Shown here one piece after another: positions 3,087-20,956 of a DNA stretch of 21,485 nt. Positions within the stretch are counted from its first letter, which is position 1; each line of letters starts with the position of its first letter. The notes under the pieces are model-generated. The model had not been told where the DNA came from and made no database searches. It saw only the letters and a program-made list of their open reading frames with translations. Location: IMG/VR virus record IMGVR_UViG_3300028569_002568, positions 1-21,485 of that record; one strand, 5' to 3'. This DNA is from a virus. The translations under genes and the position numbers were made by a program.

Positions 3087-3518
3087 TTAGTCCGCGTGTA
3101 TATAAAGAAAGCCGCTGTGAAACTGCTCGGCTTCTGGCAGGAACTGGTAGCTTTTCCCTGTTTCGATGAGTGGAGAAGTCATGTCGATAAAGCAGGGGGA
3201 TTGAACGCCGTGGTGTTTTTCCATCTCGACTTCGAGCATGTTGATTTCTTCTTGAGTTAGCGGAAACTCGCAGTTGGCCAAGTATGTGGCAATGTGGTTT
3301 GGGATTGTTACGCTTAAATGATCGAATCGATAGTGCTCTGCGATTGGTATTTTTGATAAATCCACAGGTTTGAACCCGATCTCAATCAGCTTCTGTTCGT
3401 GATCGCGATCAATAGATGCGACGGTGTAATTTGTTTTTGGTTTCAGCTCTGGAGGCAAGGAATCCTTAAGAGACACTAGGAGCGGATCTACGAATTCGGC
3501 GTATTCTTTGTCGTTCAT
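3087..3518 (-). CDS. Hypothetical protein, 143 aa
   Basis: This unrecognised 143-aa protein is mixed alpha/beta with no membrane segment. Its start ATG shares ATGA (3515-3518) with the stop of the helicase gene upstream, so it is probably translated by coupling to the helicase. A helical stretch LTQEEINMLEVEMEKHHGV lies near residues 88-106. The helicase link may hint at a role in DNA metabolism, but that is inference from position only. Confidence 0.75.
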   Translation of the reverse strand: MNDKEYAEFVDPLLVSLKDSLPPELKPKTNYTVASIDRDHEQKLIEIGFKPVDLSKIPIAEHYRFDHLSVTIPNHIATYLANCEFPLTQEEINMLEVEMEKHHGVQSPCFIDMTSPLIETGKSYQFLPEAEQFHSGFLYIHAD

Positions 3519-5482
3519 TTTTTATGTCGGTTCATGGCTTTGAGTTTCTTGGTGCTGGCTACGATGGTTTTGGCGGTGACTTTCTTGAGGGTGCCCGCCT
3601 TGAGGTGTTTTCGGTAAACATTGACCGAGAACTGGGTGGGGGAGGGGGTGTTGATGTGGCTGACGGCGGCGGCCATTTCCGATGGATCGGGGCCTCGGGA
3701 GGTGATGTGTTCCGAGTATTGGAGGTGGGCGTGCCGGAGTTGTCGGGCGAGGGTGGATTCCCATTGGTCGATGAGGCTTTGCTCCTCGATGCTGGGGATG
3801 TCCTTGCGGAAGATTCGCAGGGCTTCGCGCAGCACCCATTCCGCGTCGAGGTCTGCATCGGGTTCCTTGAAGAGCCTGCCGTCGATGGCGAGATTCGACG
3901 AGTCGCCTTTCTCGGAGAAGATTTCGTGGAGGTTTTGATCGATCGAGCCTTCGAGAAGGATGGGGTAAATGGTCACGGGTTCTGGACTGTTGATGCGCCA
4001 GATCCGGTGGATGAATTGCTCGTTCTCATCGTAAGCGTAAGAGAATCCCGGCAGGATGAGGTGCGAGCAATTCTCAAAGCTGTGACCCTCGCCCATGGCT
4101 TTGAGGCCCGCGATGAGGATGGCGTGCGTGCCTTGCTTGAACTCATCGGCCAGCAGGCCGCGCTGCTCGGGCGAGGTGTCGCCATCGAGGAGCACGCTGG
4201 AGACCTCGGCCTCGGCGAGCTTGGCGGCCAAGTCGCGGCTGAAGTCGCGGAAGGGCGAGCCGACGATCACCTGCTTGCCGTGGGAGAGGCACTCGCGGAT
4301 GATTTGCAGCGTGGCGAAGAGCTTGGGGGTCCACTCCGTCCAAGAGCGCTTGGGGCCTTTGCCGACTGTGACCGCTTCCGCGAGTTTCTCGGAAGCTGGG
4401 CACAGGGCGGCGAGGCGCAGGTTGGTGAGTTGCATGCCGACCTGCGTGCGGCGATGCACGGGCTTGGAGCCCGGTTTCTTGCCGCAGAGCGGCGCGTGTT
4501 GGAGGTGGTATTGGTAGACGGCGAGTTGCGCCGTGCCGGGGCTGACGAGGATGGGTGTCACGGTTTTTGGTGCGATGTCGAAGCCGCAGTCTGCTTTTCT
4601 GCGGCGGATGATGACTGGGGCGATGGTTTTCCAGAGACGGTGAACCGAGCAGATGCGGTTCGAGCGTTTGATGATGGTCCTCGACTCGCGGGAGTTCTGC
4701 TCGCGGGTGAGGTAGCGTTCTTTTTGGAGGAATGTATTGGCGAAGCGCTCCTTGGCGGATTCTGTGGCGGCGTAGGGCCAGCGGTCTGTGTGGCCAGTGG
4801 CCCATGCGCAGAGCCAGAAGACGCTTTCGAGGCGGTTCTTGATCGGCGTGCCGGTGAGGACGAGACGGAGCTTGGGCTGGAGCAGGCGCACGCTGGAGCC
4901 GATGCGGGATTCGGTGGCTTGGAGGCGGGTGCCTTCATCCACCACCACGCAATCGAACGAGCCGTGGGACTGCGCAAGGCGGGCCAGAGTGGGGGTCCAC
5001 AGGCAAGTGATGCCGTTTTGGATGGTGCCGATGGATTCACCACACTCGGGATCATACCGAACGCGATGCGATTTGCACCAGAATTTGCGACGGGACAGCA
5101 GATTTTTATTAGGCTGCGGCTTGCCGCTTTTCCCGAAGGAATCGCTCCACTCGTCGGCCTCGTTGAGGCCCAGCGCGGTGTAGCTGGTGATGTAGAATTT
5201 TGGCGGCCCTGTCGATGGGGCGGGGCGGTTGAGTTTGAGGTTGGAGAAGTCCTCCTTGTTGCGGACGGGGTTGAGATAGATATTGAAGAACTTGGCTGCC
5301 GAGGCGGTCATCTGGTGATGCAGCGAGCCAGGCGCGACGATGAGGGTGCGGCGCGCCTTCTTCACCAACGGCCAAGCGACGGCAGCCAGGCTCTTGCCCA
5401 TGCCAGGTTCCCAAGCGATGATCGCGCCGTCGTGCAAGGCGGCGCGGGCAAGGTCTTCAACTTGGAAGGGTTTCAGTGTCAT
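3515..5482 (-). CDS. SNF2-type superfamily 2 helicase/ATPase
   Basis: This is a DNA-dependent ATPase, probably acting in phage replication, recombination or DNA remodelling. I chose the ATG at 5482 (MTLKPFQVEDL) because it shares ATGA with the upstream stop. This gives 655 aa; an in-frame ATG at 5524 would add 14 residues. The Q-like/motif I region reads AIIAWEPGMGKSLAAV near residues 20-35. Motif II is VVVDEGT, not DEAH or DEAD, and motif III is LTGTPIKN. The C-terminal RecA-like lobe has ILIAGLKAMGEGHSFENC (motif V region) and HRIWRINSP (motif VI). Between the early motifs there is a Cys/His-containing insert around KFWCKSHRVRYDPECG. The long rightward open frame opposite this gene is a shadow. 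Confidence 0.92.
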   Translation of the reverse strand: MTLKPFQVEDLARAALHDGAIIAWEPGMGKSLAAVAWPLVKKARRTLIVAPGSLHHQMTASAAKFFNIYLNPVRNKEDFSNLKLNRPAPSTGPPKFYITSYTALGLNEADEWSDSFGKSGKPQPNKNLLSRRKFWCKSHRVRYDPECGESIGTIQNGITCLWTPTLARLAQSHGSFDCVVVDEGTRLQATESRIGSSVRLLQPKLRLVLTGTPIKNRLESVFWLCAWATGHTDRWPYAATESAKERFANTFLQKERYLTREQNSRESRTIIKRSNRICSVHRLWKTIAPVIIRRRKADCGFDIAPKTVTPILVSPGTAQLAVYQYHLQHAPLCGKKPGSKPVHRRTQVGMQLTNLRLAALCPASEKLAEAVTVGKGPKRSWTEWTPKLFATLQIIRECLSHGKQVIVGSPFRDFSRDLAAKLAEAEVSSVLLDGDTSPEQRGLLADEFKQGTHAILIAGLKAMGEGHSFENCSHLILPGFSYAYDENEQFIHRIWRINSPEPVTIYPILLEGSIDQNLHEIFSEKGDSSNLAIDGRLFKEPDADLDAEWVLREALRIFRKDIPSIEEQSLIDQWESTLARQLRHAHLQYSEHITSRGPDPSEMAAAVSHINTPSPTQFSVNVYRKHLKAGTLKKVTAKTIVASTKKLKAMNRHKK

Positions 5483-5667
5483 ATTTTTCTTTCGCGCGAG
5501 ATGCGTTTGCAAACTTCGATGCATTCGATGCTTTCGGCGTTGTTGCGCTCGCCTTCGGAAAGCGAAAGCCAGAAATTCTTTCGCGCTTCTTTTTCTGTCG
5601 AGCCCTCAACCCGTTTTTGGATTTCTTTGCATCCGCTCACCGCGACCATCAGGTAAGTTTTGTTCAT
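5479..5667 (-). CDS. Hypothetical protein, 62 aa
   Basis: This small, charged, mostly helical protein is not recognised. It begins MNKTYLMVAVSGCKEI, continues through a Glu/Lys-rich helix, and ends IEVCKRISRERKI. Its stop shares ATGA with the helicase start, which supports both genes. The ending resembles the LIKVCKRIAKQVKYEK tail of the MSYCRF protein encoded at 6162-6332, and both lie directly downstream of similar DNA. Distant duplication of the tail is possible but not shown. Confidence 0.65.
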   Translation of the reverse strand: MNKTYLMVAVSGCKEIQKRVEGSTEKEARKNFWLSLSEGERNNAESIECIEVCKRISRERKI

Positions 5668-6537: not shown

Positions 6538-6760
6538 TATTTTCTCCGTAGAGGGTTTTGAGAGCTTGGCGCTCCTCGTCGGTGAGGGCGTCATAGATTT
6601 CTCGGATGGTGTGCTGGGGAAGCTTGAGGATGAAGTCCAGGTCCACCTTTCCGCAAAGCGGAGAGGCTGGATCGATGGCGACTTGAATGACGCGAAGCGA
6701 GTCCAAGACAGCTTGGTCGTTTTCGATTTCTAGAGAGTTGACTTCTTCAGGGGTAGGCAT
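6515..6760 (-). CDS. Hypothetical protein, 81 aa
   Basis: I took the ATG at 6760 (MPTPEEVNSLEIEN) as the start, giving an acidic helical 81-aa protein ending YGENNENRNQT. The frame stays open to another ATG at 6859, which would add 33 residues. That extension would lie opposite the upstream region of the rightward peptidase gene and has an unlikely composition. No clear ribosome site marks either start. The 6761-6869 interval separates this gene from a divergent neighbour and is the most likely place for opposing promoters, although I see no good -35/-10 pair. Confidence 0.65.
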   Translation of the reverse strand: MPTPEEVNSLEIENDQAVLDSLRVIQVAIDPASPLCGKVDLDFILKLPQHTIREIYDALTDEERQALKTLYGENNENRNQT

Positions 6761-6869
6761 GAGACGGGTGTATTTTCTGGAGAGGTTGAGGCGGAGCGCC
6801 AGATTGATTGAGTTTGCTTTGCGGTTGGGTGTGGCAAAGAAGTTGTTGCGGGAGATCAAGGATCACCCC

Positions 6870-7460
6870 ATGGTGTCGCCGTTTTTAGATGGCAGAAAAA
6901 TTCGCCGTTCAGAGCACAGAAACATGCCCATAGTGGGGGGTGGGGGCGATCCAATGGATGCAACAGGTTATTTTATGCATCCGCTGCCCGACTGGAGGAG
7001 GGTGCGAAAGCGTCTCGCGGCAAAGCGCGGTATTAAAAGGGCCTATCCAGGCATTGCGATTACAAAGAGCGCGAAAGGTCAGAAACCGCTTACGGGGACA
7101 TTGGAAACTCTGATTCATGAGTATGGGCATGCAAAAGGGGGGACGCTGCATCAAGCTGCATACGAGGGCAATATTAAGAGAACGCCCATTCCGGCCTCTG
7201 TGAGAAAACGATTGCGCCCGCAAGACTGGGGCGACAAACTCGACCAACAACAAGAAGTGGACATTGGGGCTCGCAAAATTCGAATAGAGCAGGAAGCAAA
7301 CAAGAATGCTGTGCAGCTTTTAACAAAAGTTGGGGCTTCTCCTTCCGAAATGACGGATTTCTTTCGTAAAATTCAAGGGGGACAGCCCACTTCAAAGCTG
7401 GTTCACCCTTCTTATGTTGCAGGTTTTAAGGAGGCTTACAGGAAAGTGAGAGGGCCTTAA
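6870..7460 (+). CDS. HEYGH zinc metallopeptidase-like protein
   Basis: This is the only convincing rightward gene within the leftward cluster. I chose the ATG at 6870, with an AGGAT ribosome site 6 nt upstream, giving 196 aa. The frame is open upstream to 6687, but that part lies antisense to the neighbouring gene. A zinc-binding motif TLIHEYGHAKG has H83, E84 and H87. About 60 residues later comes IEQEANKNAVQLL. The spacing and shape resemble ImmA/IrrE-type and related zincins, where this Glu is the third ligand. Such peptidases in phages and mobile elements often cleave repressors or host proteins. The substrate here is unknown. The N-terminus is basic (RRVRKRLAAKRGIKR), and there is no signal peptide. 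Confidence 0.75.
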   Translation: MVSPFLDGRKIRRSEHRNMPIVGGGGDPMDATGYFMHPLPDWRRVRKRLAAKRGIKRAYPGIAITKSAKGQKPLTGTLETLIHEYGHAKGGTLHQAAYEGNIKRTPIPASVRKRLRPQDWGDKLDQQQEVDIGARKIRIEQEANKNAVQLLTKVGASPSEMTDFFRKIQGGQPTSKLVHPSYVAGFKEAYRKVRGP

Positions 7461-16415: not shown

Positions 16416-16783
16416 TTTTCAGTAATGGTTCGAGCTTCGACGGGGGTGAAATAGACATCGATTTCGATCCCGATTCCGAGCGGGCCGGGAATGGACGAGA
16501 GTTCTTGAAGGGAAAAGCTTCCCCACTCATTTTCAAACCCTTCCACCCATCCGAAGCAGATGTCCTGCCCGTCCCAATCTTGGATATACCAAGTCCAAGC
16601 TCCGCAGGGGTTGAATAGCTTTACGCGGAGCAGCTTGGAAAGCGTTTCGCCGTTGGAATCGACGTTTTCATCTGTGATGGGGACTTCCATGAGGCGGCAG
16701 GCGCGTTGCATGAGTTCCAGTTTTTTCGGCCCGTAGGTGATGCCGTTTTGCTTGATGTGATCGTAGAGGTTGATGGTGGTCAT
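16412..16783 (-). CDS. DUF2958 family protein
   Basis: This 123-aa protein matches what I know of DUF2958, a family common on plasmids, integrative elements and phages. Diagnostic parts are VKLFNPCGAWTWYIQDWDGQ, then ICFGWVEGFENEWGSFSLQEL, then IPGPLGIGIEIDVYFTP. The role of the family is not established. Here it overlaps neighbours on both sides by four bases, downstream of the JAB peptidase gene and a 66-aa gene, so it may be co-translated with the ubiquitin-like module. DUF2958 often travels with mobile elements, so that link may be incidental. Confidence 0.85.
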   Translation of the reverse strand: MTTINLYDHIKQNGITYGPKKLELMQRACRLMEVPITDENVDSNGETLSKLLRVKLFNPCGAWTWYIQDWDGQDICFGWVEGFENEWGSFSLQELSSIPGPLGIGIEIDVYFTPVEARTITEK

Positions 16784-16980
16784 GATGGGATTTTCTTGCG
16801 GCGTGCCTTGCGTTTGCGCGGTTTAGACGGCGCTGGCAAGGCGGGCGGGAGGTCAATGGTTGGTCGGAGGCTGGATTTGAATGGCTCGGTGGATAGAATG
16901 GCATCCACGGCCAGGTTGGCTACTGCGATGGCTGCCGTGCGGAGCAGCCGTTCTTGGTCGTCTCGGGATAGTTCAAACAT
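16780..16980 (-). CDS. Hypothetical protein with basic tail, 66 aa
   Basis: This 66-aa protein has a helical N-terminal half (SRDDQERLLRTAAIAVANLAV). A Pro-rich linker (LPPALPAPSKP) and a strongly basic end (RKRKARRKKIPS) follow. The tail could bind nucleic acid. It starts 3 bp after the JAB peptidase stop and shares ATGA with DUF2958, so it belongs to the same transcript. No family is recognised. Confidence 0.7.
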   Translation of the reverse strand: MFELSRDDQERLLRTAAIAVANLAVDAILSTEPFKSSLRPTIDLPPALPAPSKPRKRKARRKKIPS

Positions 16981-16983
16981 AAG

Positions 16984-18096
16984 TTAATACAGGTTATAGG
17001 ATTCGACATACTCGTCCCAACCGACATCCAAGCGAGCGAGTTCGCGCTCGATGTGTTGGCAGATGTCCCATTCCTTGTCGGAAAGGGAATGAGCTTGGCC
17101 GAAGTGCATTATGCCAAAGAGATTGGCTTGGGTGATGTCTTCGGATCTCATGAGGTTTTCAAGCCATTCGGCAAACTCCTCGAGGCGTTCGGAGTCTGGC
17201 CATTTTGCTTTGCTAGGCTGTTGAGTTACGCGGCGCGCCGGCTCGGCGGCAGCGGCGGCGTGGCCATTACAGTAGGAGGAATAATTGTAGTCATCTTCCA
17301 GAAGGTGCCTGCTCCAAGCGGCTTGCTCGTGTGCAGCAGTCGTGGAAAAGCCGACGGCGCGATGCACGATAGGCTTGGGCTCTTCCTTGATCAAATTCTC
17401 AGCCCATTGCGGCGGGAACTTGGCGTCCTCGGGTTCGGGAGTGCAGAGGTAAAACTTGGCGATTTCCTCGCGGATGGAATCGGAGATGGGGATGCCGACA
17501 TCGGGAATCTCGAACCAGTCGAAGAAAATCGCGGAGTAGTAGGCGTGGGTGGCCTTGGTCGCGGCGGTGCCATCGGCGTTGAGTGTGCCGGGGATCGTGA
17601 GCGATACACGCCCGTGGATGGAGTGGCGCAGGCCGCCGATGTTGCCGAGTGTGATGTGAAGGCCCATCTCGGTCTCATCGGCGGAGTCCGTGCCGCTCTG
17701 GAATGCGCCGGTCGAGCAATGGTGGTGGACGGTGCCGAACTTGATCCAGTTGCCGCCCGACATCTGGGCGTTGAGTTGGTTTGCGTAGTCGGCATTGTCG
17801 GAGAGTTCCTTGGCGGTCATGCCCGTGCCGTATTTCTGCGGGAAGGCGTGGGCCTTGAACTCGCCGGTATCGACATTGAGTAGGAGGCGGACTTGGGTTT
17901 CGGACTTGGTTTCCTTGTAGCTCCATTGGAAGAAAGCGACGATTTCCTGCCAGACGGAGCGGGGAATCTTGGCCCCGCTCCATCGCATGGAGGGCGTGCC
18001 ATCCTGCAAGGTGATGTTGGCGGGCACATGGCCGATGAAGCCATTGCCGAGATCGCGAAGCTCATAGAGCTTTTTGTCGTGTTGGATGATTGTCAT
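16984..18096 (-). CDS. JAB/JAMM-domain peptidase (deubiquitinase-like)
   Basis: This is a predicted zinc isopeptidase that would process the ubiquitin-like precursor or remove it from targets. The 370-aa protein carries an exact JAMM motif, HxHx7SxxD, with H124, H126, S134 and D137 in the segment VHHHCSTGAFQSGTDSADE. The expected upstream catalytic Glu is probably E66 (SETQVRLLLN). The following GLHITLGNIG is typical of phage JAB proteins. The domain covers roughly residues 40-175. A C-terminal region of about 190 residues, ending in an acidic helical part (LEEFAEWLENLMRSEDI), has no family I can name. An Ala-rich linker (AAAAAEPARR) separates the two parts. The start overlaps the upstream membrane-protein gene as ATGA. 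Confidence 0.88.
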   Translation of the reverse strand: MTIIQHDKKLYELRDLGNGFIGHVPANITLQDGTPSMRWSGAKIPRSVWQEIVAFFQWSYKETKSETQVRLLLNVDTGEFKAHAFPQKYGTGMTAKELSDNADYANQLNAQMSGGNWIKFGTVHHHCSTGAFQSGTDSADETEMGLHITLGNIGGLRHSIHGRVSLTIPGTLNADGTAATKATHAYYSAIFFDWFEIPDVGIPISDSIREEIAKFYLCTPEPEDAKFPPQWAENLIKEEPKPIVHRAVGFSTTAAHEQAAWSRHLLEDDYNYSSYCNGHAAAAAEPARRVTQQPSKAKWPDSERLEEFAEWLENLMRSEDITQANLFGIMHFGQAHSLSDKEWDICQHIERELARLDVGWDEYVESYNLY

Positions 18097-18335
18097 AATG
18101 TTGTGAATCTGCGGTTTGTTCTTGGGGAAGGGCGTCTGTGGCGCGGGGGGCGCGGGACAAAGTGAGGGCGGGGATCGGGTGGTGTGGGGTCTGGGCGGTT
18201 GTTTCCCTCGTCAGGTGGCTCGTCTTTCGAGAGCCACCATGCAACCGCCCAGACCAAAGCCACGGCCACAAGAAGAGGGCCTGCGCCAATCACGAAAGAG
18301 GCGGCGAAGAAAATGCAGAAGACGGCAAATTTCAT
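18093..18335 (-). CDS. Small membrane protein, 80 aa
   Basis: The N-terminal half is a continuous hydrophobic region (residues 1-35, FAVFCIFFAASFVIGAGP then LLVAVALVWAVAWWL). It could be one long or two short membrane spans, or a signal segment plus one span. The remainder is Pro/Arg-rich and probably disordered (PRPHFVPRPPRHRRPSPRTN). ATGA overlaps on both sides (18093-18096 and 18332-18335) place it firmly between the acidic protein and the JAB peptidase. It may anchor a component at the membrane, but this is inference from position. Confidence 0.75.
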   Translation of the reverse strand: MKFAVFCIFFAASFVIGAGPLLVAVALVWAVAWWLSKDEPPDEGNNRPDPTPPDPRPHFVPRPPRHRRPSPRTNRRFTTL

Positions 18336-18943
18336 TCGTCATCCTCGTCCTCGTCTTCGCCATCGCGCTCGCGGATCATGCGCTCGGCGTCTTCCATGAG
18401 GGATTCGAGGTCATCTTCAATCTCGATCCCGTCATCGCCTCCATATTCGTAGTCTGAAATGTCGCCGTATTCTTTATCCGAAGCTTCAACGCTTTCGCGG
18501 ACATATTCTTCCACCTCTGCTATACCTTGTTCCCAGATGGAAAGCGGCACTTGGACGCACTCACTTTGGTCCCAGCCTACGGTGCAGTTGTCATAGCCGC
18601 TAATCTCGCCAGTGACTTCGATAAATTCTCCACGCGCAATTTGAGCGCGATGGCTATTCGGATTGGAGGTGTTGCCGGTCCATACAACGGAAGCGGGCGA
18701 AGGTGGAGGCGCGGGATTGGGGGCGGTTGGGAGAGTTGCAAGCCACGCCTCGATCTGCTCGAAGGTGGTGCAATTCTCCGGCACGGGCCGGTTGAACTTG
18801 ATGCGCAACAGGGCGCGTGTGTAGGGCGACATGGGGGCGAGTTGCACAAGATTTTTGAGGTCTTGGCTGATCCAGCGGAAGGGCAGCGGCTCGGGCCGCG
18901 GCGCTTCGATGTTGGTCGGGTATACAGGTGGTGTTTCTGTCAT
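18332..18943 (-). CDS. Hypothetical protein with acidic tail, 203 aa
   Basis: This 203-aa protein lies between the E1-like and membrane-protein genes. The N-terminal part (residues 20-75) looks helical, including NLVQLAPMSPYTRALLRIK. It is followed by a Pro/Ala linker (PTAPNPAPPPSPAS) and a probable beta domain (RGEFIEVTGEISGYDN, then SECVQVPLSIWEQ). The last 50 residues are extremely acidic and end EDEDEDDE. Such tails can mimic DNA or bind basic proteins. The start lies 9 bp after a palindrome copy, without a clear ribosome site. I do not recognise the family. Confidence 0.75.
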   Translation of the reverse strand: MTETPPVYPTNIEAPRPEPLPFRWISQDLKNLVQLAPMSPYTRALLRIKFNRPVPENCTTFEQIEAWLATLPTAPNPAPPPSPASVVWTGNTSNPNSHRAQIARGEFIEVTGEISGYDNCTVGWDQSECVQVPLSIWEQGIAEVEEYVRESVEASDKEYGDISDYEYGGDDGIEIEDDLESLMEDAERMIRERDGEDEDEDDE

Positions 18944-18952
18944 GATGCTGTG

Positions 18953-18970
18953 AGTCTTATGTGTAAGACT
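18953..18970. repeat. AGTCTTA palindrome, copy 4
   Basis: The arms AGTCTTA and TAAGACT are perfect, with a TGTG loop. The copy lies in the short gap between the E1-like stop (18974) and the start of the acidic 203-aa gene (18943). It divides the E1/E2/Ubl block from the JAB block. Confidence 0.8.
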
Positions 18971-18973
18971 GGG

Positions 18974-19675
18974 TTATGCTGCGTAGCGCAGCGTTTCGTT
19001 GGCGGTGGCGGTGTTGCTGAACGAGATAGGCCAGTAGGGGCGCGTGAGGGCGGGGTCGAGCTTGGGCCGCTCGATGAAGACGAAATTCCATAGAAGCAGC
19101 AGGTGGGAGGCGGCCATGAAGTTGGCGATGGGAGTCTGCGGAACCTCGCGCAGCCGCGCCTCGGAGTTGCAGCCCGAGGCATGGACGGGCGAGCCGGTGT
19201 CGTCGGTGAGAATCTCGGGCCAGCGCACGCGGGGATCGCGCGGAGTGTCGCGGTCGTGGGTGGCATCATACCACCACGCCTCCGCGCCGATGGTGGAATT
19301 GGCGGCGGAGAGAACATGGACGCCTGCGGCGCGGTCAGCGGCATCCAATGCGTGGCGACGGGCCAAGTGGTTGTCTGCCATGATGATGATGCAGTCGCCA
19401 TCGTCCACGCGGAACGAACCGTCGATGTAATGGCGCACCACGGAGAGCTTGGGATACCAGTTGCAGGAATCTGCCAATGCAAACGCCTTGTTGGTATCCA
19501 CATACTGGGTCTCGAAATTCTGCCGCTGGAAATTGCGCTCCTCGAGCTTATCGCCATCGTAGAGATGGACGGGGATGTTGCGAAGGCGCAGCTTGTCGCC
19601 GTAGCGGAGCGTGCGAAGGAGTGGCGGCAGGAAGTAGCTGGCCACGCCGCCGCAGCCGATGATGTTTATGGTCAT
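18974..19675 (-). CDS. ThiF/E1-like adenylating enzyme (PRTRC ThiF-like)
   Basis: This is a predicted E1 that would activate the C-terminus of the ubiquitin-like protein with ATP. From the ATG at 19675, which shares ATGA with the upstream gene, it has 233 aa, close to the PRTRC ThiF family. The Rossmann nucleotide loop is IIGCGGVAS (residues 5-13). D40 in LYDGDKLEERNFQRQNF is the ribose-binding acid, with the conserved N and R of the E1 family after it (N48, R51, Q52). IIIMADN contains D101, the likely Mg/ATP acid. C169 in HASGCNSEARL is the best candidate catalytic Cys, followed by PQTPIANFMAASHLL. The frame is open for another 119 codons upstream, but those overlap two real genes. Confidence 0.9.
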   Translation of the reverse strand: MTINIIGCGGVASYFLPPLLRTLRYGDKLRLRNIPVHLYDGDKLEERNFQRQNFETQYVDTNKAFALADSCNWYPKLSVVRHYIDGSFRVDDGDCIIIMADNHLARRHALDAADRAAGVHVLSAANSTIGAEAWWYDATHDRDTPRDPRVRWPEILTDDTGSPVHASGCNSEARLREVPQTPIANFMAASHLLLLWNFVFIERPKLDPALTRPYWPISFSNTATANETLRYAA

Positions 19676-19950
19676 AGTGATCGGATGGCTTCTTTGATGG
19701 GGCGGTTTTTGTTGTAATCGGCATCCATCTCTGTGGCAATGCGTTGGCTGGTGGTTAAGAAGTTGGCGTTCCCGTTGAAGTATCGCTGAAGGCAGCGAAG
19801 CTGGGAGCGGTTGGTTTCGTAAAGTCTCACAACAACTTTGAGGAACTCGCGATCCTTCTCGTCTTCGTCGGAATTGAGATAGACGGGGTTTTGGGCTTGA
19901 GTTTCCGCGTTGCCGTCGGTGAGCCGTTTTAAGCGGTGGTATAAGTTCAT
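19672..19950 (-). CDS. Unknown protein between E2 and E1, 92 aa
   Basis: The start at 19950 shares ATGA with the E2-like stop, and the stop shares ATGA with the E1-like start. This gene is therefore coupled on both sides to the conjugation enzymes. The 92-aa product is charged and helical: MNLYHRLKRLTDGNAETQA, an acidic patch DEDEKDREF, then VVVRLYETNRSQLRCLQRYF and TTSQRIATEMDADYN. It has no zinc ligands and no RING- or HECT-like features. Its position suggests an adaptor or a conjugation target, but nothing in the sequence proves this. Confidence 0.75.
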   Translation of the reverse strand: MNLYHRLKRLTDGNAETQAQNPVYLNSDEDEKDREFLKVVVRLYETNRSQLRCLQRYFNGNANFLTTSQRIATEMDADYNKNRPIKEAIRSL

Positions 19951-20639
19951 GGCGTAAGAATTTGGTCGTAAATCCAACTGGAAAGAGATCGCTGCATATC
20001 GCTGTCGATGTCGTCCCAGCCGCGGTAATCAATCGTCATGGTGGCGGGATCCCACAGCAGCAAAGGGATGGGTGCAGTGTGGGGGCGGAGATCGGTGTTG
20101 GACTCCGCATTCTGGAACCAATCCACGGCGGCCTCAAACTGCTCAACCAGCGTGCCTGTCGGTGATATCCAGTTGCGGCCCATACAAATCTTGCCGTCGT
20201 CATAGGTGTTGCTGAACGGCGGGCGGTAGATGTTGTCGCCCGGTATGAACCACGCCATGTGCGGGGCATCGCTCATGCGTTGTTCGCGTCCCATGTCGAA
20301 CGGGCAGAGGAACCAAAACTCGTGGCCGCCCGGCGGGGTGAACTCCAAGTTTTGGCGGATGGCCATGCCATTGTCGTAGAAGACCGGCGTGATGCGGGCG
20401 GTGCCGTCGGGTAGCGTGATGGGGGCGAACCAAGTGTTGAGCTTGATGCGATCCAGTTTTTTGGCCAGCACCGCGCGGTCTGGCCCAGCCTTGAAGCGGT
20501 AGCCCGGCGAGGGGTAGTTGCGGTAAACCACCGGCTCGGAGCGGGCCAAGCTGCGCAGGATGTCTGCGCCGTTAGACACCTCGCGAAGCGGGGCGTGGCA
20601 TAATTTGCCATCGGGTCGAATAATATACAAATCTTGCAT
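19947..20639 (-). CDS. E2-like conjugating protein (PRTRC protein B-like)
   Basis: This is predicted to take the activated ubiquitin-like protein from E1 and pass it to a target. The 230-aa length matches the PRTRC protein B family. The core motif is FSNTYDDGKICMGRNW (residues 142-157) with C152 as the candidate catalytic Cys. In bacterial E2-like proteins this takes the form N.Y..G..C.G. The preceding MAWFIPGDNIYRPP plays the part of the HPN-side loop, and the following TLVEQFEAAVDWFQNA is the helix after the active site. The N-terminal region (LYIIRPDGKLCHAPL, then VVYRNYPSPGYRF) is the family extension. The gene follows the Ubl gene by about 90 bp that contain a strong hairpin, and is coupled to the 92-aa gene. 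Confidence 0.85.
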   Translation of the reverse strand: MQDLYIIRPDGKLCHAPLREVSNGADILRSLARSEPVVYRNYPSPGYRFKAGPDRAVLAKKLDRIKLNTWFAPITLPDGTARITPVFYDNGMAIRQNLEFTPPGGHEFWFLCPFDMGREQRMSDAPHMAWFIPGDNIYRPPFSNTYDDGKICMGRNWISPTGTLVEQFEAAVDWFQNAESNTDLRPHTAPIPLLLWDPATMTIDYRGWDDIDSDMQRSLSSWIYDQILTP

Positions 20640-20680
20640 AAAATAATAAACGAGTGAATGTTAAAACGAAGCAGGCCGCC

Positions 20681-20727
20681 GCGCCGCGCAAGTCTTATGC
20701 GTAAGACTCGCGCGAGCGCGGCGACGA
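20681..20727. repeat. Extended GC-rich hairpin around palindrome copy 5
   Basis: The region holds AGTCTTA-TGCG-TAAGACT (20691-20708), and the arms continue outward as near-complementary GC-rich stretches (GCCGCCGCGC on one side, GCGCGGCGAC on the other). This gives a stem of about 24 bp with a few mismatches. It begins just after the Ubl stop. No run of T follows, so a classic intrinsic terminator is not supported. A strong mRNA hairpin that protects or separates the Ubl message is possible. Confidence 0.7.
20691..20708. repeat. AGTCTTA palindrome, copy 5
   Basis: This copy is identical in sequence to copy 2 (TGCG loop). It forms the tip of the longer GC-rich hairpin between the Ubl and E2-like genes. 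Confidence 0.8.
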
Positions 20728-20731
20728 GGGA

Positions 20732-20956
20732 TCAAGCGGCCTTGGAGTGGGCCAGCTTCTGAATGAGGAGGGTATCCCCCGCAAACAGAGTGGTTTCCAA
20801 GTTCGCCTTCGCTCCACCGATCAGACCCTCGACATTGCTGGTGTCGAAGTTCAACACGGCGGCGTAGTTCGAGTTGGACAGGATCTGGCCGACGCTAGTG
20901 CCCTCGGGCACATCGACGGACAGAGTGTTCAACCCGCTTTTGAGCGTGATGGACAT
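20732..20956 (-). CDS. Ubiquitin-like protein (PRTRC protein C-like)
   Basis: This small beta-grasp protein is the predicted modifier of the pathway. I chose the ATG at 20956 because an AAAGGAAA ribosome site lies at the right distance, giving 74 aa. The frame stays open to an ATG at 21115 but adds a Ser/Thr/Pro/Ala-rich stretch with no family resemblance. The fold pattern is visible: two N-terminal strands (SITLKSGLNTLSVDVPEGT), the helix SVGQILSNSNY, then strands AVLNFDTSNVEGLIGG and TLFAGDTLLIQKL. This fits PRTRC protein C and other bacterial Ubl proteins. It ends KLAHSKAA, so there is no C-terminal Gly-Gly. It is the first gene of the module. Confidence 0.8.
   Translation of the reverse strand: MSITLKSGLNTLSVDVPEGTSVGQILSNSNYAAVLNFDTSNVEGLIGGAKANLETTLFAGDTLLIQKLAHSKAA

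Follow-up and report, generated by a model that had tools for sequence, protein, structure and literature searches.

Can a bacteriophage carry a complete ubiquitin-like conjugation pathway, and by what chemistry would such a pathway work if its modifier does not end in glycine? This question is raised by the IMG/VR virus record IMGVR_UViG_3300028569_002568, of which the whole stretch analysed here, a fragment of 21,485 bases (positions 1 to 21,485), is called the window below. Its minus strand bears, from 20956 to 16984, a module composed of a ubiquitin-like protein (Ubl), an E2, a 92-amino acid (aa) open reading frame (ORF), an E1, an acidic protein, a membrane protein and a JAB peptidase. 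The first-pass annotation had described Ubl, E2-like, E1-like and JAB-like genes in one leftward series, and all four were recovered at that place and on that strand. The gene identities are very well supported, and the module is not a product of chance, as the same gene order in four other IMG/VR contigs, purifying selection and profile–profile support for each enzyme all show. Taken as a whole, the locus is probably a phage-encoded, reversible ubiquitin-like conjugation module. The gene set and its order, the invariant catalytic residues, the purifying selection and the Lys-Ala end of the Ubl with its variable extension are read from sequence, and the ubiquitin fold comes from a predicted model.

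The ubiquitin-like protein and its Lys-Ala end

The AlphaFold2 (AF2) model of the Ubl has a pLDDT (predicted local distance difference test) of 88.6, and its alignment with ubiquitin chain residues 1–74 by VIA-align gave Z 9.8 and a root-mean-square deviation of 1.8 over 68 aligned residues. Moreover, Foldseek placed ubiquitin-family chains on top (Bacteroides Ubl 8hm2, Caldiarchaeum ubiquitin and NEDD8), and the Ubl, as modelled, is of ubiquitin-like (beta-grasp) topology across the whole chain. By sequence, the Ubl gave no match of meaningful score in scans against Pfam, NCBIfam and other profile libraries, and PF14454 (Prok_Ub) found no match in the window, where its positive control was likewise silent. 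Single-sequence Pfam and NCBIfam scans miss both the Ubl and the JAB, so profiles and structure are needed. In group-versus-group comparison with hhalign, in which the window's own sequences are absent from one side, the window-group Ubl profile matched an independent group with 89.5% probability (E 2e-6).

Ubiquitin and its known conjugated relatives carry a C-terminal glycine. The first-pass annotation, although right in its Ubl call, had missed that this glycine is lacking here and that a conserved, apparently processed Lys-Ala end stands instead. The ends were counted in 54 distinct Ubls, window included, from 85 loci bearing the window's JAB group (the window and its four relatives, together with the loci newly found by the second JAB search described below; some contigs occur twice). 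Lys-Ala was found at the end of the fold in 52 of the 54, two NKKA tails that the script had counted as Lys-Lys being read by eye as Lys-Ala. The exceptions are Lys-Asn in L152 and Lys-Gly in L159, which lies outside the clade by its E1; Gly is absent from the whole window group. In 37 Ubls Lys-Ala is the end of the protein, and in 15 of the 52 it is followed by 1–8 variable residues (A, V, L, HG, TEVLA, ELACA, EPALVV, TAELAHA, TVELALA or NELELVAA); the tail is A in the window Ubl and A or V in its relatives. Tandem Ubls occur in L149 and L150, both with tailed Lys-Ala Ubls. The combination of an invariant Lys-Ala with an unconserved tail behind it looks like a processing site and implies cleavage after Ala, for which the linked JAB would be the obvious protease. 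Judged from these ends, maturation of the Ubl to Lys-Ala is quite likely.

E1s belonging to Lys-Ala systems group in a single clade without intruders (FastTree local support 1.0), which also appears in IQ-TREE, there with a long-branch warning; this is consistent with Gly having changed to Ala once. Related phages and PRTRC-like elements outside the clade have Ubls with the end GTKG or GNKG (KTNG in two PRTRC plasmids), and these occur as tandem Ubls, with two copies in several phage contigs, or as C-terminal fusions. The Lys-Ala clade Ubl has no match to the GTKG Ubls in profile comparison, so the common descent of both Ubl types rests on gene context. E1 positions separating the Lys-Ala from the Lys-Gly clades were considered as evidence and rejected, being confounded with phylogeny; with the same caution, Val11 and Ala125 of the Lys-Ala type (mostly Thr and always Gly, respectively, in the Lys-Gly type) can be listed as candidate specificity residues.

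Several further Ubl loci were seen alongside. In Vibrio phage D69 (L005:2385-3176), three tandem Ubl units ending in TGTKG are annotated as hypothetical, and the annotated start of the E1 gene of this phage seems to be about 200 bases too late. The 220-kb Bacillus velezensis plasmid pAD3, which also has DNA polymerase III alpha, encodes a 245-aa protein (L018:967-1704) made of four Ubl units in tandem, all with the end KAGTKG; E2, JAB and E1 follow. Such tandem Ubls of related phages and of the Bacillus plasmid resemble polyubiquitin precursors. At L046:770-1114, a di-Ubl with the ends TGSKA-A and TGSKA-V lies beside E2 and JAB, with no clear E1, and is possibly an independent case of the alanine end; a reverse-transcriptase-like ORF (YIDD; L046:4652-6355) lies two genes downstream of that JAB.

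The enzymes and the phages that carry them

The E2 scores 25.4 bits against PF14460 Prok-E2_D (cut-off 25), and its candidate catalytic Cys152 lies within RPPFSNTYDDGKICMG. Cys152, Asn144 and Gly154 are present in all 56 distinct homologues, among which no conserved histidine occurs downstream of the Cys, the place being taken mostly by Asn-x-Asp-Leu. With hhalign, the window-group E2 profile matched independent phage groups at 97% and 96% probability. The E1 has the nucleotide loop GCGGVAS and matches TIGR03736 PRTRC_ThiF with E 6.6e-7, which is below the family cut-off; against two independent phage E1 groups, the hhalign probability was 99.9% and 99.4%. Ten of its residues (Gly7, Gly9, Gly10, Asp40, Asp42, Asn48, Lys63, Asp101, Arg106 and Cys169) are kept in 57/57 distinct homologues. 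The JAB bears the motif HHHCSTGAFQSGTD, that is, HxHx7SxxD, and its window-group profile matched independent phage JAB groups with 99.9% and 96.4% probability. Among solved structures, sequence searches gave a weak ThiF-type match alone for the E1 (9egc, E 0.003) and were uninformative for the E2 and the JAB. Cys152, an intact E1 nucleotide loop and an exact JAB motif had been claimed beforehand; all are read in the sequence, and a search for loss of catalytic residues found them invariant across 56–62 distinct homologues. The family assignments fared likewise in profile searches, the E2 passing the Prok-E2_D cut-off and the E1 and JAB matching other phage E1 and JAB profiles.

Since the E1 is a minimal ThiF-like protein, and a PRTRC ThiF lies close to a PAPS-reductase family gene on two vibrio plasmids, the Ubl could instead be a sulphur carrier or cofactor-like carrier, which the E1 activates for sulphur to be passed on, and no protein modifier. 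However, ThiS and MoaD need a C-terminal GG, the Ubl end here is Lys-Ala, an E2 with an invariant Cys and a JAB are present alongside, and neither a rhodanese nor any sulphur gene could be recognised, so that this role is quite unlikely.

The reading as a conjugation module has also to be weighed against several points that count against it. Glu66 of the JAB is present in 58/58 and His124, His126, Ser134 and Asp137 in 62/62 distinct homologues, but the JAB loci were retrieved by the pattern AF[FQ]S[GA]TD or [SG]AFQSGTD, in which Ser134 and Asp137 lie, so the conservation of these two is circular, while that of the Glu, the His and the E1, E2 and Ubl residues is not. The AF2 model of the JAB is poor (pLDDT 55.7) and too weak to serve as a structure; its top Foldseek matches in the PDB are MPN/JAMM proteins (Rpn11/Rpn8, BRCC36 and the bacterial Ubl-deubiquitinase 8tyx). 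The JAB thus has the Glu and HxHx7SxxD of a JAB/JAMM peptidase in its sequence and an MPN fold as predicted by that low-confidence model. Taken alone, the window E1 and JAB score below the Pfam and NCBIfam cut-offs (12.2 bits only for the JAB against PRTRC_A), and no E3 was recognised. Conjugated Ubls as a rule end in glycine, so the alanine may point to a role other than conjugation. Non-covalent action is known for some eukaryotic Ubls, Hub1 among them, and in the same manner the Ubl end, having no C-terminal glycine, might be bound non-covalently, with the enzymes forming a regulatory complex without conjugation. This is highly improbable in view of the E1 ATP-site residues and Cys, the E2 Cys and the JAMM residues, all of them invariant, and of the strict Lys-Ala end with its variable extension.

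As for distribution, the E1 query found four IMG/VR contigs (L001–L004) with the window's gene series, with identities to the window of 84% for the Ubl, 72–75% for the E1, 50–55% for the E2 and 54–59% for the JAB; the sharing of the gene order by related phage contigs, a point raised at first pass, is thereby settled. Used as a single query, the E2 retrieved no viral relatives, its peptide patterns being too specific. The dN/dS ratio (nonsynonymous to synonymous substitution rate) between the window and L001 and L002 is about 0.13–0.41 by a Nei-Gojobori script, a rough value given the high dS, and the module genes are under purifying selection. The contig of L001 (G001) runs collinear with the window; it is a phage of 96.7 kb with terminase, portal and primase.

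A first JAB alignment, which took in three divergent loci (Arash, D69 and the Bacillus plasmid), found 63 IMG/VR contigs, and our own hidden Markov models, run over 74 loci with references included, detected E1 in 72 and E2 in 61. With a second JAB alignment, built around the sister group of the window, 87 IMG/VR viral contigs were matched, of which 80 were kept; in a genome collection of 84,980 prokaryote species it gave 4 loci only, all on contigs of metagenome-assembled genomes, and the window's own E1 alignment had zero matches among these genomes. That is to say, the clade is a viral offshoot and almost only viral. Of the 85 loci, 79 yielded an E1, 72 an E2 and 65 a Ubl, with the order Ubl-E2-E1-JAB in 64 of these 65, and the genes missing from loci are mostly missing at contig ends. 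A terminase family was matched in 11 of the 12 viral contigs tested (8 strong, 3 weak). The first-pass annotation had rightly placed the module in phage DNA with a terminase nearby (GpA type, found by Pfam and PHROG profiles), but it had missed that the module belongs to a widespread phage family rather than being a one-off.

Known systems and the position of the module in phage genomes

Among known systems, the type 6d operons described by Iyer et al. 2006 (PMC1779556), to which the Prok-E2_D and PRTRC A/B/C/ThiF families are assigned here, come closest. Both have standalone Ubl, E2, E1 and JAB genes and a further protein; type 6d has a conserved alpha-helical fifth protein, for which the 92-aa gene of the window, at a comparable place, is at most a candidate counterpart. 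In addition, the window E2 passes Prok-E2_D and the JAB has an N-terminal extension. However, in type 6d the C-terminal glycine of the Ubl is highly conserved, and a histidine downstream in the E2 absolutely so (PMC1779556), whereas the window-clade Ubl ends in alanine and its E2 is without that histidine; moreover, type 6d is known from bacterial genomes (PMC1779556) and the window clade is nearly all viral. With the glycine and the histidine lacking, the module is a variant working like type 6d and not a plain member.

The best named matches are to PRTRC B, ThiF and A, and plasmid relatives near ParB exist, so a PRTRC cassette of a plasmid or integrative and conjugative element, acquired by phages for replicon maintenance (partition), has to be considered. 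Against this, every PRTRC match in the window is far below its curated cut-off (profiles TIGR03735, 03736 and 03737; 18 vs. 131.45 bits for PRTRC_B, 28.9 vs. 144.75 for ThiF and 12.2 vs. 101.8 for A), ParB (ParB_N) is absent from the window and from the 96.7-kb relative, the single ParB of a 95-kb relative (G003) is some 10 kb away from the module, and the clade is almost only viral; there is hardly any probability left for such a cassette. The PRTRC_D (ParM-like) profile gave no match in the window, with its positive control silent too. A PRTRC-like flavour that is not PRTRC proper, with no ParB partner in sight, is just what had been noted at first pass.

The Bil operon (BilABCD) also has Ubl, E2, E1 and JAB genes, and its JAB is reported to mature the Ubl (PMC11354881, citing Chambers et al.). 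Unlike it, the window has a single 74-aa Ubl in place of the two fused Ubl domains and reactive glycine of BilA, an E1 of one 233-aa domain in place of the inactive and active adenylation domains of BilD, and a seat in a phage genome, Bil being a bacterial antiphage defence operon. In CBASS type II (Cap2/Cap3), E2 and E1 are fused, whereas they are separate genes here, and PADLOC gave weak E1-E2 matches only, to the E1 part. Lambdoid TAPI/TAPK share with the window a phage-encoded Ubl and JAB (PMC1779556), but they have no E1 or E2, TAPI is a fusion, TAPK comes with NlpC/P60, and both lie in the tail gene cluster. A search restricted to the open-licence literature gave no published account of phage E1-E2-Ubl-JAB modules.

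Among 50,697 annotated phage records, only Salmonella phage Arash and Vibrio phages D69, D181 and D148 were matched by the E1 or by the Arash E2. Like the window, they have Ubl(s), E2, JAB and E1 in one series with the same catalytic residues; unlike it, they have the order E2-JAB-E1, an extra protein of 230–320 aa and Ubls ending in RTGTKG or KTGTKG. Their module genes are annotated as hypothetical or structural, the latter for two of Arash's three enzymes, and the E1, JAB and E2 of Arash are among the 116 proteins in particle preparations (PMC10585845 Table 2; its numbering seems one off from GenBank, and either reading covers all three enzymes). These observations suggest a role in virion assembly, with capsid or tail proteins as the targets that E1, E2 and JAB would modify or process, a role also suggested for lambda TAPI/TAPK. 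However, RNA ligases and ribonucleotide reductases are among the 116 proteins too, and according to the authors abundant enzymes may co-purify (PMC10585845). Moreover, in a 42,150-base contig (G022), probably complete in view of its 64-base terminal repeat, Ubl-E2-x-E1-JAB lie at 23.1–26.5 kb near the head of a rightward block, preceding DNA polymerase, with primase and helicase, while the head and terminase genes run leftward. This position at the head of the replication block argues for action during infection and not in the virion, and it is from the neighbouring replication genes that we infer expression during infection; a virion-assembly role is unlikely.

Gene layout and the proposed pathway

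The features of the window are collected in Table 1. ATGA overlaps join E2 to the 92-aa ORF, this ORF to E1, the acidic to the membrane protein gene, and the latter to JAB. The ATGA coupling proposed in the first-pass annotation is therefore real, but it is not direct, either from E2 to E1, where the 92-aa ORF overlooked in its gene list lies between, or from the acidic protein to JAB, where it passes through the membrane-protein gene.

Table 1. Features of the module and phage marker in the window
Feature	Position	Strand	Evidence
Ubl, 74 aa, precursor end ...LAHSKA-A	20732..20956	(-)	AF2 model, ubiquitin fold; 84% identity in four relatives
E2-like conjugating enzyme, 230 aa, Cys152	19947..20639	(-)	PF14460 Prok-E2_D; conserved residues
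92-aa protein between E2 and E1, no assigned function	19672..19950	(-)	ATGA overlaps; small gene at same place in relatives
E1-like (ThiF fold) adenylating enzyme, 233 aa, candidate catalytic Cys169	18974..19675	(-)	TIGR03736, hhalign, invariant residues
Acidic 203-aa protein	18332..18943	(-)	46–55% identity, same place in L001–L004
80-aa putative membrane protein, N-terminal hydrophobic helix	18093..18335	(-)	Same place in L001–L004; ATGA overlaps
JAB/JAMM metallopeptidase, 370 aa (Glu66, His124, His126, Ser134, Asp137)	16984..18096	(-)	Motif, Foldseek, hhalign
66-aa protein, possible operon member directly after JAB	16780..16980	(-)	56–71% identity, same place in L001–L004
Terminase large subunit (GpA type), phage marker	503..2353	(+)	PF05876 E 2.4e-55; phrog_15 E 6.4e-112

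A small gene stands at the place of the 92-aa ORF in L001–L004, L059, L065 and L068, and similarity between the 92-aa protein and the sister-clade protein at this place is not detectable by profile search. The acidic gene has one copy in the window and two tandem copies in L001–L004, which also keep the membrane-protein gene in place; both proteins are candidate adaptors or substrates. In a distant relative, a 470-aa protein between E1 and JAB (L079:5108-6520) resembles the N-terminal part of the acidic protein by eye, with no likeness by profile search. Elsewhere in the window, a 257-aa protein with an HEYGH zinc-protease-like motif (6687-7460, plus strand) lies on the strand opposite to its neighbours and has a 33% identical relative in the 96.7-kb phage. 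A 669-aa SNF2-family helicase (3515-5524, minus strand), 75% identical in a relative, weakly resembles the defence helicases ZorD and DpdE and is likely a phage helicase (phrog_62).

In the pathway proposed for the conjugation module, the Ubl would be made as a precursor ending in ...HSKA-A, and the JAB peptidase would cut off the last residue, exposing ...HSKA. The E1 with ATP would then adenylate the C-terminal alanine and hold the Ubl as a thioester on Cys169, from which it would be handed to Cys152 of the E2 and then, covalently, to lysines of target proteins of the host or the phage; the JAB may be able to detach it from the targets again. Superinfection exclusion, put forward at first pass, and defence are hypothetical roles for such a pathway. 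As far as sequence can tell, covalent conjugation via Ala together with action during infection stands at roughly even odds.

So far, bacterial ubiquitin-like systems have been familiar chiefly from antiphage defence or from plasmid cassettes that lack an explanation, and complete E1-E2-Ubl-JAB sets are here conserved phage genes, found in dozens of related contigs and in four cultured phages. The chances are about equal for and against a large phage family having a complete ubiquitin-like pathway, whose modifier would be cut to, and conjugated via, a C-terminal alanine and would tag host or phage proteins in infection. If true, it would be a viral conjugation system with a chemistry outside the glycine rule. 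Two questions thereby become testable, namely which host proteins the phage tags and whether a Ubl can be activated and attached through alanine, and the variable tails after Lys-Ala make a clear biochemical prediction.

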